Shown here in pieces: positions 1,734 through 16,614 of a stretch of 21,572 nucleotides of DNA. Under the pieces are notes generated by a model. The model searched no databases. It saw only the letters and a list, made by a program, of their open reading frames with translations, and was not told the DNA's origin. Every line of letters starts with the position of its first letter. Position 1 is the stretch's first letter. This stretch comes from a virus: IMG/VR virus record IMGVR_UViG_3300042881_003336, positions 1-21,572 of that record; one strand, given 5' to 3'. The translations under genes and the position numbers were made by a program.

Positions 1734-4700
1734 TGGTTTTATAGAGTTTTTAAGTCCTAATGCATTATCGGAATTAAAACAAGCTGAAACTTTAATTAAT
1801 AGTTTGGCAAGTAGCATTGAAAAAATAAATAAATTTAAAGCACCAACTTCTCCAAGTGGAGCTGATAATGCTGCAAAGCAAATGGCTGCTGATTTAAAAG
1901 CACAAGAACAAGCTATTAAAAATACTACTACTGCATTAATTCAAGAAGAAAAAGTAAAGCAACAGGTTATTTCTACTGAAATAAAACAATCTAACGCTAT
2001 AAAAGCCAATATAGCAGCAAGAGAAGCAGAAAGAAAAGCTACTTTAGCACAACAACAAGCACAAGAAAAAGCCGCTAAAACAGCAGAACGTGAAGCATTA
2101 GCAAACGAAAAGTTAAACTCTGCTTACAATCAATTAAACGCTGCAAGAGCAAGAGCAAAGAATGTATTAAGAGATTTAATTGCAAGTGAAAGTGCATCAA
2201 ATGCTGAAATAAGAAAGGCTCAAAGAGAATTTGATGTATTAGATCAAAAAGTTAGAAAAGCTGATAAAGCAGTAGGTGATTTCTCAAAAAGTGTTGGAAA
2301 TTACAAAGGAGCATTATCAGGAATAGGAAATTTAATGGGTGCTTTTGGTATATCAACTGGACTTTATTTAGCTGCTGATTTAGTTAAAAATATATTTGAA
2401 ACTACAAAACAAATACAGTCGTTAGATTTAGCGTTAAGAATGGTTAGTGGTTCACAAAATGAATTTGCAACTAATCAAGTTTTTTTATCTAACCTTGCTG
2501 AACAATATGGTATAGAAATTCAAGGACTTACTAAAAACTTTACTGAATTTTGGGTTGCATCTAAAGGAAAGTTAGAAGCAGAACAAATAAAAGCAATATT
2601 TACAAGCATTTCTAAATCGGTTGCTGTAATGGGATTATCTGTTGAACAACAAGATAGTGCTTTCCTTGCTTTGCAACAAATGATGAGTAAGGGTACTGTT
2701 CAAGCTGAAGAATTGAAAAAACAATTGGGTAACGCATTACCTGGTGCTGTTAAAGCCGCTACAATGGCTTATCAAGCATTACACCCTGAATTAAAAGTAA
2801 CTGAAAAGTTATTTATGGAACAAATGAAAGCGGGTAAAATATTATCTGCTGAATTGTTACCTGAATTAGCTAAAGCATACGAAAAACTTTATGGAATTGA
2901 AAATGTAAATAGAGCTGAAACATTAGCTGCTGCTCAAAACAGACTTTCAAATAGTTGGACTAAAATGATTCGTAATATAAACGAAAGCGATAATAACGGT
3001 TTAACTATGTTTTTTACAACTTTATTAGATTATTTACAAAAATCTATTAAAGGAGTTGATTATCTAGCTTCTTCATTAAATCAATTATCAAAAAATAGAA
3101 GATCAGAATCACAAGAAGAAGGTATAAAATTATGGTCAGTAGAAGATGTAAAAAAATTAAATAAAGAAGAATTAGACGATGTTATATCTGATATTAAATT
3201 TAGAATCACAAAAGGTGTAAATGAATTAAATGAATTAAATAAATCATCAGGTTGGTTAATGGATGTTTTTTCAGCGCATCTTCGTTCAAAAAATATTTTA
3301 AAATGGACTGAATATTTAGGACAGGCTGAAGGAGAATATAAAGCAATTAAAAAAATTATAGACGAAATAAATAAACCAAATGTTGTTGCGCCGCCTGTTA
3401 AAAAAACAAAAACTAAAGAAGAATTAGAAGAAGAAAAAAAAGCTGCTAAATTATTAGAAGAACAAAGAAAACAACAATACGAATTAGATATATCTAATAT
3501 TAAAAGAGAAATAGAAAGAGCTAAAGATAAATTTAATATAGTAGAAGAATTAAATAAACAAGAATTAGGTTATTTTCAAAATGGTGTTGCTAAAAAAATG
3601 AAATTATCAATGGATTTAGCAATACTTGAAATAAAGTTAGCTCAAAAAGTTGCTGATGAAAAGAAAAGATTAGCTAAAGGAAATAAAGCATTAGGTATTT
3701 CTCCAACTATTGGTGGCGATGTGATTGCAGAAAACGAATACGCAACACAATCAGTTAATATTGCTGAAAATTTCACAAATAGAATGGATAAAATCAATAA
3801 AGATTATTTCAAGTCTATGGCAGAATCTGTGCCTAAAGATTGGAGTTCTAAAACTCCTACAATGTGGACACCTGAACAAATAAAACAAGCAGAAGAAGAT
3901 GCTAAAAAAATAGCCGAAATACAAAAAAGATTACAAGACGAATTTAGAAACTATATTCAAAGTTTTGGACAAGAGTTTTTTAGTAATGCTGGTTTTGGAG
4001 AAACATTTGATTTCTTTTTAAGAATGGATCAAGATGGCAAAACAATGTTTGATAAACTTGGAGAATTAGCTGATGGTTCTGTTGAAAAGTTTGCTGCTAC
4101 ATTCCAAGCAATATCAGAAAGCGCACAAGAAATGTATAACTTTATATCTCAAGCATCACAGGCTAATTTTGATGCAGAATACGAAAGATTAGAACAACAA
4201 AAAGAAGTAGCTTTAATGTTTGCTGGAGATAGTGCAGCAGCAAAAGAAGAAATAGAAAGACAATATGAAGAAAAAAGAAAACAAATAGCAAGACGAGAAG
4301 CAAAAGCTAAAAAAGAACAAGCAATAATGAATATTGCTATTGATACTGCACAAGCAATTATTGGTTTGTGGGTTAGTCCAGGATTTCCAGCGGCAATACC
4401 TTTATCTGTTGCAGTAGGAGCATTAGGAGCTGCTCAAATTGCTATGGTTTCAGCACAACAAATTCCTCAATATTGGAAAGGTACTGATAATGCAGATGGT
4501 GGTTTAGCATGGACACAAGAAAAAGGTCGTGAGATTATTACAGATAGTCAAGGTAGAGTTAAATCATTAGGTAGTGATAAAGGTGCTGAATTAACAATGC
4601 TTTCTAAAGGAGATAAAGTATTTACTGCTGAAAAATCTGCTATGATGTTTGATAATGGTTTAAATAGTATGTTATTAAAAAATGGTATAGTTATGCCTAA

Positions 4701-12198: not shown

Positions 12199-12318
12199 AT
12201 GATATTAACTAAATATAGAATGATTGACGAAGATGGATCTTGGGTTGAAACACTTGATATTGAACAAGCAGAAAACCATGGAAACTATATTGTAATAACA
12301 GAAGAAATAAATGAGTAA
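12199..12318 (+). CDS. 39-aa hypothetical protein
   Basis: A short ATG-to-TAA frame between the fibre gene and the holin candidate encodes an acidic 39-aa protein containing D-E-D-G-S-W-V-E-T-L and ending ITEEINE. It starts 18 nt after the fibre stop and overlaps the next ATG by 8 nt, which is the normal junction style here and supports translation. It has no membrane segment and no recognised family. Many Bacteroidota phages carry a similar small acidic protein after the fibre genes, but I cannot assign a role. Confidence 0.5.
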   Translation: MILTKYRMIDEDGSWVETLDIEQAENHGNYIVITEEINE

Positions 12319-12517
12319 AAAAAATTTAGACGCATTAATAAATAAATGGATAAGTAGAAAATTATTTGTTTTCTTAGTAGCTAGTGGTTTATTAATGTTC
12401 GCAGACTTAGAGTCATCAGATTGGGCATTAATTGCAATAACATATTTAAGTAGCCAAACAGTATTAGATTCTGTTACGGTATATTCTAAAATGAAAAACA
12501 ACAATAATAATGAATAG
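12311..12517 (+). CDS. small membrane protein, holin candidate
   Basis: A 68-aa protein with a basic N-terminus (MSKKNLDALINKWISRK), one clear transmembrane helix at residues about 18-32 (FVFLVASGLLMFA) and a second moderately hydrophobic helix at about 38-56. The tail is Asn-rich and hydrophilic. It lies two genes upstream of the M15 endolysin, overlaps both neighbours by 8 nt, and has the size and topology of a class II or III holin. The lysis role is inferred from topology and position, since holins share little sequence. Confidence 0.6.
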   Translation: MSKKNLDALINKWISRKLFVFLVASGLLMFADLESSDWALIAITYLSSQTVLDSVTVYSKMKNNNNNE

Positions 12518-12695
12518 CGTTCACGACATAAAACTTTTGGTTGTAAATGGTTTTTTAATTAGTTTCAGTTTCTCAAATGTAGAATTAGGATTGAAGATTT
12601 TTTCTTTAGTATTAGCTATTGGATATACTACCCGCAGATGGTGGCTGATGGAAAAAAATAAAAAAAATGATAACACAGGCTCAACTGATAGCTAA
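12510..12695 (+). CDS. small membrane protein, second lysis-cassette component
   Basis: A 61-aa protein with a hydrophobic segment at residues about 8-22 ([14 protein letters not shown]), a second at about 27-40 ([13 protein letters not shown]), a basic-aromatic boundary ([12 protein letters not shown]) and a polar tail. It overlaps the holin candidate upstream and the endolysin downstream (29 nt), which suggests tight co-expression. Pairs of small membrane proteins next to an endolysin are often holin and antiholin. Which of these two is the pore former cannot be told from sequence. Confidence 0.6.
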
Positions 12696-13125
12696 ATACG
12701 GAACTCCTAACAAAGAGGGCAAAGGATATATTACTCAAATTACTTTGCCTTATCCTATGTACTACGATGGCAAAAAAGTAACTAAAATCAGTTGCCATAA
12801 ATTAGTAGCAGATAAACTTTTGGCAATATTCAATGATATATTAGAGTTTTATGGTCAAGATGCAATTCGCGATTTAAAAATTGATGATTATGGCGGTTGC
12901 TTTAATTATCGTTTAATGAGAGGCGGAACTAAACTAAGTGTACATAGTTGGGGTTGTGCTATTGACTTAAACCCAAGTCGTAATTTATTAAGAGAAACTT
13001 CAAAGACTGCGAGATTTGCACGTTTAGAATATAAGCCAATGATTGATATATTTTATAAGCATGGATTTGAATCTTTAGGCAGAGAAAAGAATTACGATTG
13101 GATGCATTTTCAGGTAAAAGATTAA
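12667..13125 (+). CDS. M15-family peptidase endolysin
   Basis: A 152-aa enzyme of the M15 (VanY / L-Ala-D-Glu or D-Ala-D-Ala peptidase) group, expected to cut peptidoglycan stem peptides or cross-links. The zinc site is complete: SVHSWG (H93), AIDLNP (D100) and DWMHFQ (D144 as the catalytic acid, H147). The usual N-P-x-x-N follows D100. There is no signal peptide, so access to the wall would need the adjacent holin candidates. Length is close to a lone catalytic domain with no separate cell-wall-binding module, as is common in phages of Gram-negative hosts. Confidence 0.92.
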
Positions 13126-13234: not shown

Positions 13235-14260
13235 ATGGGTACAAAAGGAAATCAAAATGCAGCTACTTACAAAAAAGATATAGTTTTATCTTTTATTAAT
13301 CAGTTTCCAAAGGCAACTACAATGGCTATTGCACGAATGATTTATGATAAACATAAATTAGATTTCAATTCACTTGATGGAGTAAGAACAAGTGTAAGAA
13401 GATATAGAGGCGAAAATGGTAAAAATAACTCACCTATTTCCAAAACTGGAGAACGCACCGAAAAACAAAAAAAACAAAGCATCAGCAGAACTATAGATTT
13501 GCCTGATAGCGATTACGAAAAGTGTGAACCATTTATAATTCCAAAAGGTCAAAACAATATTTTAATTTTAAGCGATATTCATTTCCCTTACCAAGATAAC
13601 AAAGCATTAAAACTTGCTTTAAACTACGGACTTGAAAACAAAGTCAACACAATATACTTAAATGGTGATATTGCAGACTTTTACCAATGTAGCCGATTTA
13701 CTAAAGACAGACGATTAAGGGATATGGCTGGAGAGTTGGAAATGGTTAGAGAGTTTCTAAAAAAAATTCAAGAACTATTCAAATGCCCTATCTATTATAA
13801 AATCGGAAATCACGAAAAAAGATACGAAGATTATTTAATGATTAAAGCACCTGAGTTATTAGGTATTGATGATTTTAAACTTGAACAACTTTTACGATTT
13901 AGGGAGTTTGGTGTTACGTTGGTTAAAGATAAGCAAATGGCAATGGCAGGAAGGCTTCCAATACTTCATGGACACGAATGGTTTGGTGGATTTGCACCGC
14001 CTGTTAATCCTGCAAGAGGTTTGTTTATGAAAGCTAAAGAGAGTGCAATCGTAGGACATCATCATAGAACATCGGAACATACTGAAAAGAGGTTGAGCGG
14101 TGAAGTTACAACAAATTGGTCCACAGGATGCCTTTGCGGTTTAGAACCCGAATATGCGCCTTATAATCAATATAATCATGGATTTGCTCACGTTAAGGTA
14201 GCAAGTGATGGTAATTACGAATTAAAAAATATAAGAATAATCGATTATAAAATTGTGTAA
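13235..14260 (+). CDS. calcineurin-like metallophosphoesterase with N-terminal HTH-like region
   Basis: A 341-aa protein with all calcineurin-like motifs: SDIHFP (D114, H116), NGDIAD (D145, D148), GNHEKR (N192, H193), LHGHEW (H245, H247) and VGHHHR (H275, H277). These bind two metals and support phosphomonoesterase or phosphodiesterase activity. The first 75 residues are a basic helical region with T-M-A-I-A-R-M-I-Y-D and R-T-S-V-R-R-Y motifs, which look like a winged-helix DNA-binding segment joined by a polar linker. This combination suggests a nucleic-acid substrate. Related phage proteins of this type occur next to lysis genes, but the substrate is unknown. It has its own candidate promoter and its stop overlaps the next ATG. 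Confidence 0.88.
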   Translation: MGTKGNQNAATYKKDIVLSFINQFPKATTMAIARMIYDKHKLDFNSLDGVRTSVRRYRGENGKNNSPISKTGERTEKQKKQSISRTIDLPDSDYEKCEPFIIPKGQNNILILSDIHFPYQDNKALKLALNYGLENKVNTIYLNGDIADFYQCSRFTKDRRLRDMAGELEMVREFLKKIQELFKCPIYYKIGNHEKRYEDYLMIKAPELLGIDDFKLEQLLRFREFGVTLVKDKQMAMAGRLPILHGHEWFGGFAPPVNPARGLFMKAKESAIVGHHHRTSEHTEKRLSGEVTTNWSTGCLCGLEPEYAPYNQYNHGFAHVKVASDGNYELKNIRIIDYKIV

Positions 14261-14452: not shown

Positions 14453-15115
14453 ATGAAAAGAATAAATTACACATCAGGACAAATTGTTAATAATCATGGA
14501 ATAATATATGTTTCAGAACAACCTTTTATTATTGCAAGTAAGGTTAAGAGAAGAACTGCTATATTTAAATGTCAATGTGAAAAAGAATTTATTTCTATTA
14601 TAAAAGATGTAGTATATAATAAAAGAACAAGTTGCGGTTGTAAAAAAGGATCTAAGCCAAAAATATACAAAAAAGGTGATTTTATTAATGGAATTAAATT
14701 TATAAAAAGTTGTGGAACATTTAAAAATGCGCAAAAAGCTATATTTGAATGTCCAAAATGTAAAAATCAATGGATTTCATTAGTTAATAATATTCAAAGA
14801 GGCAAAACAAAATCTTGCTGCGGAAGTATTAAAGGATGGACTAGAAGTCAATGGATTAATTTTTCAAAAACATCTAAATTGTATAGAGTAAGATTATATA
14901 ATGAACATGAATCATTTATAAAAATAGGAATAACTACAAAGACTTTGAAAGAAAGATTTAAATATATTCCTTATAGTTTTGAGATAATAAATGTTGTAGA
15001 AGGAGAATCTTCATATATTTTTGATTTAGAAAATAGATTTAAAAGATTTTTTAAAAAAAATAAATACACACCTAAAATAGATTTTTTAGGTAAAACAGAA
15101 TGTTTTAAAATTTAA
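14453..15115 (+). CDS. GIY-YIG-type homing endonuclease with two zinc-ribbon-like repeats
   Basis: A 220-aa, very basic protein. Two similar DNA-binding-type units come first: C40-x-C42 ... C61-G-C63 and C100-x-x-C103 ... C122-C123, each with the F-x-C-x-x-K/C start and T-x-S-C-x-C/G end found in phage homing endonucleases. Residues 142-218 resemble a GIY-YIG nuclease: K-L-Y-R-V-R-L, then F-I-K-I-G-I-T (K-I-G in place of Y-I-G), R168 in ERF, E193 in DLENRF and the terminal TECF. The protein would cut DNA near a recognition site to spread its own gene. It is even more AT-rich than its neighbours and interrupts the start of the next gene, which supports mobility. The nuclease class is inferred from motifs. 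Confidence 0.75.
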   Translation: MKRINYTSGQIVNNHGIIYVSEQPFIIASKVKRRTAIFKCQCEKEFISIIKDVVYNKRTSCGCKKGSKPKIYKKGDFINGIKFIKSCGTFKNAQKAIFECPKCKNQWISLVNNIQRGKTKSCCGSIKGWTRSQWINFSKTSKLYRVRLYNEHESFIKIGITTKTLKERFKYIPYSFEIINVVEGESSYIFDLENRFKRFFKKNKYTPKIDFLGKTECFKI

Positions 15116-15119
15116 AGTT

Positions 15120-15443
15120 ATGGATATATCAAAATGTAATGACAGTTTATGTCCAAGTAAAGATTACTGTTATAGGTTTACTGCTCCAGCAAGTTTAGTT
15201 TATCAATCTTATGGAAGTTTCAATCGTGAAGAAGATGCAGACAACTGCGATATGTTTTGGGCAAATGGTAAGGAATCTACCAAGTGTAAACTAAATGGAG
15301 TTAAAAGAGATGGTGAAATATGCAATTTAGACTATTGCACGTATCCAAAATGCGTTCAAGACACGTATTGTCCTAAATGCCATAAGGTAGATGGTGAACA
15401 CAAAATGAGCTGTGCTACAAGAAAAATTCAATGTAACTTATAA
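15120..15443 (+). CDS. cysteine-rich MDISKC-type protein, metal binding likely
   Basis: A 107-aa protein with twelve cysteines (6, 11, 17, 43, 56, 68, 73, 78, 84, 87, 98, 105) and two nearby histidines (88, 94). The first half, M-D-I-S-K-C ... C-P-S-K-x-x-C-Y-R-F-T-A ... Q-S-Y ... C-D-M-F-W, matches a short protein common in flavobacterial phages. The second half adds a denser cysteine cluster with C-P-K-C-H. Spacing suggests zinc or iron-sulfur binding. The extra C-terminal module may be a fusion, since the form I remember ends soon after the C-D-x-F-W block. The ATG lies 4 nt after the endonuclease stop. No function is known to me. Confidence 0.7.
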   Translation: MDISKCNDSLCPSKDYCYRFTAPASLVYQSYGSFNREEDADNCDMFWANGKESTKCKLNGVKRDGEICNLDYCTYPKCVQDTYCPKCHKVDGEHKMSCATRKIQCNL

Positions 15444-15606: not shown

Positions 15607-15762
15607 ATGAAAATAACAGTTGAAACAAACGGAGAAGTAATTACAATGGAATTACATAATGATAATACAATTTGGGAACTTATTTCTAAATTAAAAATTA
15701 TGCTTTTATTTTGTGGATATAGCCAAGATTTAATTAATCAAATAATAGAGGATAACGAATGA
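15607..15762 (+). CDS. 51-aa hypothetical protein
   Basis: A short ATG-to-TGA frame overlapping the following gene by 4 nt (ATGA). The product is an acidic 51-aa protein with a beta hairpin-like start (MKITVETNGEVITMEL) and a helical end (QDLINQIIEDNE), with one cysteine at residue 36. Similar short proteins with this start occur in flavobacterial phages, as I recall, but without a known function. The stop-start overlap suggests that it is translationally coupled to the spanin candidate. Confidence 0.6.
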   Translation: MKITVETNGEVITMELHNDNTIWELISKLKIMLLFCGYSQDLINQIIEDNE

Positions 15763-16265
15763 CAACAACTGAAAATAACAACGGAAATAACATTTTACTA
15801 ATAGCTATCGTATTGGCTTTAATAATAGGAATACTATTGACTTCTTGCGGATCAAGAAAAGTTCAAAAGTCAGAAACTAAAGAACAAGAGCAAAAAACTG
15901 TAAAAATTACTCTCGAAACTGAAACGAAAGTAACCGACAACACTAAAATAATTGATACTTCAACAACTGATGAAATAGAAATTGTTCCAATCGACAATAC
16001 TTTACCTTTTACTGTCAATGGTAAAGAGTACAAAAACGTTAAAATAAGACACAAAAAAAGTAAAAACAATATAAGTATAGTAAAAGATGAAAAAGTCCAA
16101 CACAAAGCACAAAAAGAGGGTGTAATGATGGTTAAAAGAAACAAAATAATAGAAGTAAAACAAACTGAACGTAAAGATTCATATTGGTGGCTTCTTTGGT
16201 TCTTACTTTTAGTACCAATTTACATTTTATACAAAAAATATAAAAATAAATTTTCTTTTTTATAA
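15759..16265 (+). CDS. candidate unimolecular spanin (lipoprotein with C-terminal membrane anchor)
   Basis: A 168-aa protein with two membrane anchors. The N-terminus carries a hydrophobic helix (residues 12-27) that ends in the lipobox LLTSC (C30), so the mature end should be lipid-modified. Residues 31-139 are charged and hydrophilic and could span the periplasm. Residues 142-158 (WWLLWFLLLVPIYILY) form a transmembrane helix followed by basic residues. Outer-membrane lipid at one end and inner-membrane helix at the other is the architecture of u-spanins such as T1 gp11, which fuse the two membranes in lysis. No acidic export signal follows C30, so the lipid should stay in the periplasmic leaflet. 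The N-terminus lacks the usual Lys/Arg. The function is inferred from topology. Confidence 0.65.
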   Translation: MTTTENNNGNNILLIAIVLALIIGILLTSCGSRKVQKSETKEQEQKTVKITLETETKVTDNTKIIDTSTTDEIEIVPIDNTLPFTVNGKEYKNVKIRHKKSKNNISIVKDEKVQHKAQKEGVMMVKRNKIIEVKQTERKDSYWWLLWFLLLVPIYILYKKYKNKFSFL

Positions 16266-16365: not shown

Positions 16366-16614
16366 TTAGTAATTACATTTTATATCTCCAACCGCTCCCT
16401 GATGTCCAGGCAAATCAATTACTTTTATTTCACCTGTGCAGTTCTTTTTCATTTTCATTTTGGTAATTGGAGTTTGTAATACGTTAAAATAAACTACTTC
16501 AACTGCTACTCCGCAATTACAATCGGTGTTAGTTTCATTTGTATTATTATCATCTCCTGTTGAACAGCTAATTGAAATTGCAGCCATTCCTAAAATTAAA
16601 ATTGTTTTTTTCAT
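16366..16614 (-). CDS. small lipoprotein with surface-export-like signal
   Basis: An 82-aa protein with a basic start (MKK), a hydrophobic core and the lipobox SISC (C17). The mature protein begins C-S-T-G-D-D-N. An acidic pair just after the lipid cysteine is typical of Bacteroidota lipoprotein export signals, so the protein is probably displayed on the cell surface. The 66-residue mature part has four more cysteines (32 and 34 as C-N-C-G, 59, 80), which could form two disulfides. It is the last gene of the minus-strand operon and ends just before the convergent hairpin. A surface lipoprotein made early by a phage could block superinfection, but that is a guess. Confidence 0.75.
   Translation of the reverse strand: MKKTILILGMAAISISCSTGDDNNTNETNTDCNCGVAVEVVYFNVLQTPITKMKMKKNCTGEIKVIDLPGHQGAVGDIKCNY

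Follow-up and report, generated by a model that had tools for sequence, protein, structure and literature searches.

One gene in the virus DNA analysed here very probably encodes the u-spanin of a phage that infects flavobacteria (Table 1). The DNA—the window, as we shall call the whole stretch of 21,572 nt—makes up a virus record of 21.6 kb that is classed as linear and is probably a fragment of a virus genome. A preliminary description had proposed a u-spanin at this place, and comparison with the protein's relatives supports the proposal: the lipobox cysteine is invariant, the C-terminal helix is retained, distant members carry ordinary lipoprotein signals, the genes lie downstream of wall hydrolases belonging to six families, and the family is homologous to the candidate u-spanins of phages FCL-2 and 11b. 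Because such relatives have already been listed as predicted u-spanins, the window protein is an addition to a known, predicted class, not a discovery.

Table 1. The spanin candidate, its predicted parts and its neighbours in the window
Feature	Coordinates	Strand	Evidence
Candidate u-spanin, 168 aa, PHROG 5885 family	15759..16265	+	ORF; conservation; phrog_5885 E 1e-9; upstream wall hydrolases
Predicted lipoprotein signal: n-region without positive charge, h-region, lipobox LTS	15759..15845	+	Sequence; Ser29 invariant
Codon of lipobox Cys30	15846..15848	+	Cys invariant, 37/37
Predicted periplasmic middle, ~112 aa; conserved P77, P83, N87-G88, Y91, N93, K100	15849..16184	+	Alignments; model beta-rich, of low confidence
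Predicted C-terminal transmembrane helix, residues 143–160, then KKYKNK	16185..16238	+	Hydropathy; helix in model, pLDDT about 75
51-aa ORF upstream, stop overlapping spanin ATG (ATGA)	15607..15762	+	ORF list; conserved in many relatives
M15 peptidase endolysin	12667..13125	+	PF13539 E 3.7e-10; phrog_17001 endolysin E 1.6e-45; phrog_6584 E 3e-64
Small membrane protein, holin candidate	12311..12517	+	Position before endolysin; hydrophobicity
Second small membrane protein, holin/antiholin candidate	12510..12695	+	Overlaps both neighbours; conserved in relatives
Metallophosphoesterase gene, outside lysis, between endolysin and spanin	13235..14260	+	phrog_221 E 1e-42; conserved in relatives
Endonuclease-like gene, between endolysin and spanin	14453..15115	+	phrog_681 E 3.8e-21

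The protein is built as first described. A lipobox (L27-T28-S29-C30, the end of LLTSC), followed by GSRKV, precedes a hydrophilic middle, about 112 residues long, that extends to about residue 141, and the chain ends in a single hydrophobic helix at about residues 143–160 (YWWLLWFLLLVPIYILY) and a Lys-rich tail. By a crude rule based on hydropathy—an h-region followed by a lipobox, and one hydrophobic segment at the C-terminal end—this is the sole ORF of the u-spanin plan among the 26 in the window of at least 70 aa. None of 457 ORFs from Markov shuffles (n = 200) fits the rule, and when the residues of the protein itself are shuffled, 3 in 100,000 do. The gene is real, since pN/pS, measured against 24 relatives, lies between 0.25 and 0.50 (median 0.415), and it is under purifying selection; its ATG overlaps the stop codon of the 51-aa ORF before it, and the two are possibly translationally coupled. 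The predicted structure, of low confidence (mean pLDDT 58, pTM 0.22), has helices at the N- and C-termini and strands between, a layout like that described for u-spanins (Kongari et al. 2018, PMC6139136).

About 80 relatives are known, most of them from IMG/VR and most environmental. A scan of IMG/VR found 42; a profile-based scan gave 122 matches, of which 80 were kept; and a scan of bacterial assemblies gave three, one of them weak. In a diverse alignment of 37 members, 28–82% identical to the window protein, nine residues are invariant: S29, C30, R33, K34, P77, G88, N93, K100 and K134. The cysteine is also unchanged throughout a 36-member set, and position 28, just before the invariant serine, is mostly T, C or S. 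Full-length relatives end in a hydrophobic helix: 71 of the 78 fit the rule of lipobox plus terminal helix, and the remaining seven, judged by eye, keep the terminal hydrophobic stretch. PHROG 5885, labeled 'unknown function', matches the window protein over nearly its full length (residues 21–158, E 1e-9), all 37 members of the diverse alignment, and gp19 of FCL-2 (E 7.7e-71). It is the family to which the window protein belongs, and its label could now give way to that of a probable u-spanin family.

Other databases were less forthcoming. Nothing in Pfam or NCBIfam exceeds the cut-off for the window protein, the NCBIfam matches being weak and far below theirs. A match to PF22251, the transmembrane domain of a vacuolar protease (E 8.8e-7), falls below the curated cut-off and is explained by hydrophobic ends joined by a charged linker. 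We claim no membership among the PHROG 'Rz-like spanins', because the match there is marginal (phrog_1026, E 0.3). Searches of annotated phages by tblastn with two distant members, L083 and L070, returned no matches.

The preliminary description called spanins poorly described in phages of Bacteroidota. As predictions they have in fact been described, and so there is no gap here. In Table 5 of Kongari et al. (2018, PMC6139136), FCL-2, 11b and RAP44 stand as singletons among the phages with u-spanins, and several others, whose names are of the Cellulophaga type, fall into small families; unimolecular spanins have been annotated in the Cellulophaga phages Ingeline and Nekkels (PMC8776804); and a 2025 survey reports that phages of Bacteroidetes use unimolecular spanins exclusively (PMC12596118).

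Two of these singletons belong with the window protein. Its family is homologous to gp19 of FCL-2 (YP_009140520; hhalign E 1.6e-11) and to PHG11b_49 of Flavobacterium phage 11b (profile comparison, E 7.8e-16). By the crude rule, FCL-2 has no ORF of the u-spanin plan but gp19, and in 11b no ORF of this plan other than PHG11b_49 is adjacent to the lysin; on these grounds we infer that they are the u-spanins meant in Table 5. Like the window protein, gp19 has the lipobox SCGSRKV, a charged linker, the motif P..V.G..Y.N and a C-terminal helix, and matches PHROG 5885; an M15 endolysin that is 63% identical to the window's is encoded 0.76 kb upstream of it. The FCL-2 protein differs in being shorter (127 aa versus 168 aa), in having an ordinary MKK n-region, and in that the two proteins are only about 30% identical. 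PHG11b_49, for its part, shares SCGSRKV, EPIDN...V.GK.YKNV.IKHKK and the C-terminal helix, but lies directly after a GH19 endolysin, is 154 aa long, and also begins with MKK.

Resemblances to other spanins lie in the plan. The prototype, gp11 of T1, which complements lambda RzRz1 (PMC6139136), likewise runs from a lipobox through a hydrophilic middle to a C-terminal helix and a basic tail, and is also encoded in the company of holin and endolysin; in plan the likeness first drawn to it holds. No homology extends beyond the 20 residues of terminal helix that align, however; gp11 belongs to PHROG 1804, not 5885, and the window protein has no phrog_1804 match. Riemerella phage RAP44 gp03, encoded between holin and endolysin, likewise has a lipobox (SCRTRKK) and a C-terminal helix, but no PHROG 5885 match. 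Neither of the Cellulophaga phages phi13:2 and phi10:1, both on the list of Kongari et al., has a candidate by the crude rule within its first 50 kb.

The company these genes keep points the same way as the plan of their products. Counting the window, FCL-2 and 11b, we assembled 86 loci; 15 had too little upstream sequence, leaving 71 usable, and in 67 of these a wall hydrolase is encoded upstream on the same strand. The hydrolases, confirmed by Pfam on representatives, are GH24 lysozymes (35 loci), M15_4 (13) and M15_3 (9) peptidases, Amidase_2 (6), GH19 (3) and DUF5675 (1), the last a family of undescribed function, which we count on position alone. The hydrolase gene is directly adjacent in 16 loci, with a stop/start overlap of 1 or 4 bases in ten and a longer overlap in two; in one (L082) a Phage_holin_4_1 gene (Pfam) precedes the lysin. 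Many loci are closely related, so these counts do not represent independent events. It is the persistence of the linkage across several unrelated enzyme families that supports a role in lysis.

In the window, 2633 nt separate the end of the endolysin gene (13125) from the spanin candidate, which bears out the 2.6 kb originally given. The accompanying suggestion that this separation would hide the gene from cassette-based searches does not hold for the family, since distant members sit beside the lysin. What separates the two in the window's clade is a metallophosphoesterase gene together with small ORFs, and the window has an endonuclease-like gene there as well that is missing from relatives; the gap is thus a feature of the clade, lengthened by insertion of the endonuclease.

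Could the protein be something else? One feature, passed over in the preliminary description, gives pause. The n-region of the window protein, MTTTENNNGNN, has no positive charge at all, which is atypical for a signal peptide, and Arg-Lys comes directly after the lipobox; 31 of the 78 full-length relatives also have no positive charge in their first 12 residues. Read naively, the positive-inside rule would flip the orientation of the first helix, and this would count against a u-spanin. The protein might then span the inner membrane twice in the ordinary way, with a Lys-rich cytoplasmic middle and an unlipidated Cys30, as the neutral-to-acidic n-region and the Arg-Lys pair would suggest. An alternative start codon, in frame and further upstream, does not supply a basic n-region in several relatives, because in these a stop lies one or two codons before the ATG. 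We think the two-helix arrangement very improbable, nonetheless. The cysteine and the serine before it never change across the 37 diverse members, in an h-region that otherwise drifts; distant homologues have textbook lipoprotein signals that begin MKK or MRK (MKKL..LLLTSC, for example MKKLILILLLLLTSCGARKV); and the strongly positive C-terminal tail fits a middle that is periplasmic.

We give equally little credence to the idea that the protein is a phage lipoprotein with some other role in the envelope—superinfection exclusion, perhaps, or as an accessory to wall or holin—in which the C-terminal anchor is incidental. The endolysin is not adjacent in the window's clade, it is true, and the role of the family is known from prediction only. 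Against this, the linkage to lysis enzymes has persisted even as the enzyme itself was replaced by members of unrelated families, and exclusion lipoproteins are not known to have a C-terminal transmembrane helix. Scarcely credible, finally, is a two-component spanin in which the protein would serve as o-spanin, with an additional anchor, and depend on an i-spanin encoded elsewhere in the genome. In its favour, the window is a 21.6 kb fragment, and in some relatives the gene just before the endolysin specifies a protein that has an N-terminal helix and a coiled coil (3303–3716 in locus L006). But the Lys-rich stretch after the helix of these neighbours suggests that their coiled coil is cytoplasmic, no coiled-coil gene of this type precedes the endolysin in the window, and, while no Rz/Rz1 pair was seen near the lysis genes of this incomplete genome, one protein bears both membrane anchors.

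If the protein is a u-spanin, its likely course of action can be sketched; lipidation, topology and membrane fusion are features that we infer by analogy. Export through the inner membrane would be directed by the N-terminal signal; after cleavage before Cys30 by signal peptidase II, the cysteine, now lipidated, would come to lie in the outer membrane, in its inner leaflet. The C-terminal helix would stay behind in the inner membrane, its Lys-rich tail in the cytoplasm, and with the two anchors so disposed the mostly extended middle would tether both membranes through the peptidoglycan mesh. When the holin triggers and the M15 endolysin degrades the wall, these tethers would be free to cluster and collapse, and in collapsing they might fuse the outer membrane, or otherwise disrupt it, and so release the progeny. 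Kongari et al. (2018, PMC6139136) model the disruption as fusion.

What is new here—an annotation for PHROG 5885, and a cysteine in the middle domain—is modest. The cysteine, which about 40% of members have, occurs as Cys-Pro, in the motif EICP, in 33 of 78 full-length relatives (5992–6459 in L083 and 5965–6429 in L075, for instance), and three more have a different mid-domain cysteine. Elsewhere V, I, S, E or K stands at the EICP position; in the window protein it is Val, and the mature periplasmic part of this protein contains no cysteine. Kongari et al. (2018, PMC6139136) found a periplasmic cysteine in none of 58 u-spanins, and the family as a whole, with 33 and 3 members of 78 that have one in the middle, departs from this pattern. 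Many members of this flavobacterial u-spanin superfamily might form disulfide-linked dimers through the EICP cysteine, as two-component spanins do, while others, the window protein included, make do with another residue, and a subclade might be exported by an uncharged or acidic n-region that perhaps slows or times insertion. We offer this joint reading as speculation, and rather doubtful speculation at that. The variable cysteine does make disulfide dimers of some u-spanins a testable question, however. The FCL-2 and 11b singletons of Kongari et al. are now joined, with some 80 relatives, into one homologous family of flavobacterial phages, and its diversity suffices to choose the residues with which mechanistic work on a u-spanin might begin; those authors report little experimental work on the class (PMC6139136).

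Several neighbouring genes deserve mention. Neither of the two small membrane proteins encoded before the endolysin has a family match above cut-off in Pfam or PHROG. The endonuclease-like gene occurs at its place in the window's own record only, among the loci tested. In two other loci, L045 and L027, the interval between endolysin and spanin contains different ORFs, HNH-like as judged by eye, which suggests a site of repeated insertion. A Cys-rich protein of 107 aa (15120–15443), whose family matches are weak, is also encoded in this interval in the window, and most close relatives keep it. Just downstream of the spanin candidate, on the minus strand, is a gene for a small predicted lipoprotein (16366–16614; MKKTILILGMAAISISCSTGDDNN...), with close homologues, among the loci tested, in L003 and L011 only. 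The proteins with an N-terminal helix and a long coiled coil (MIWLLENW...GGKQAKK) are encoded directly before the endolysin in L057 (2776–3189) and L064 (5013–5522) as well as in L006.
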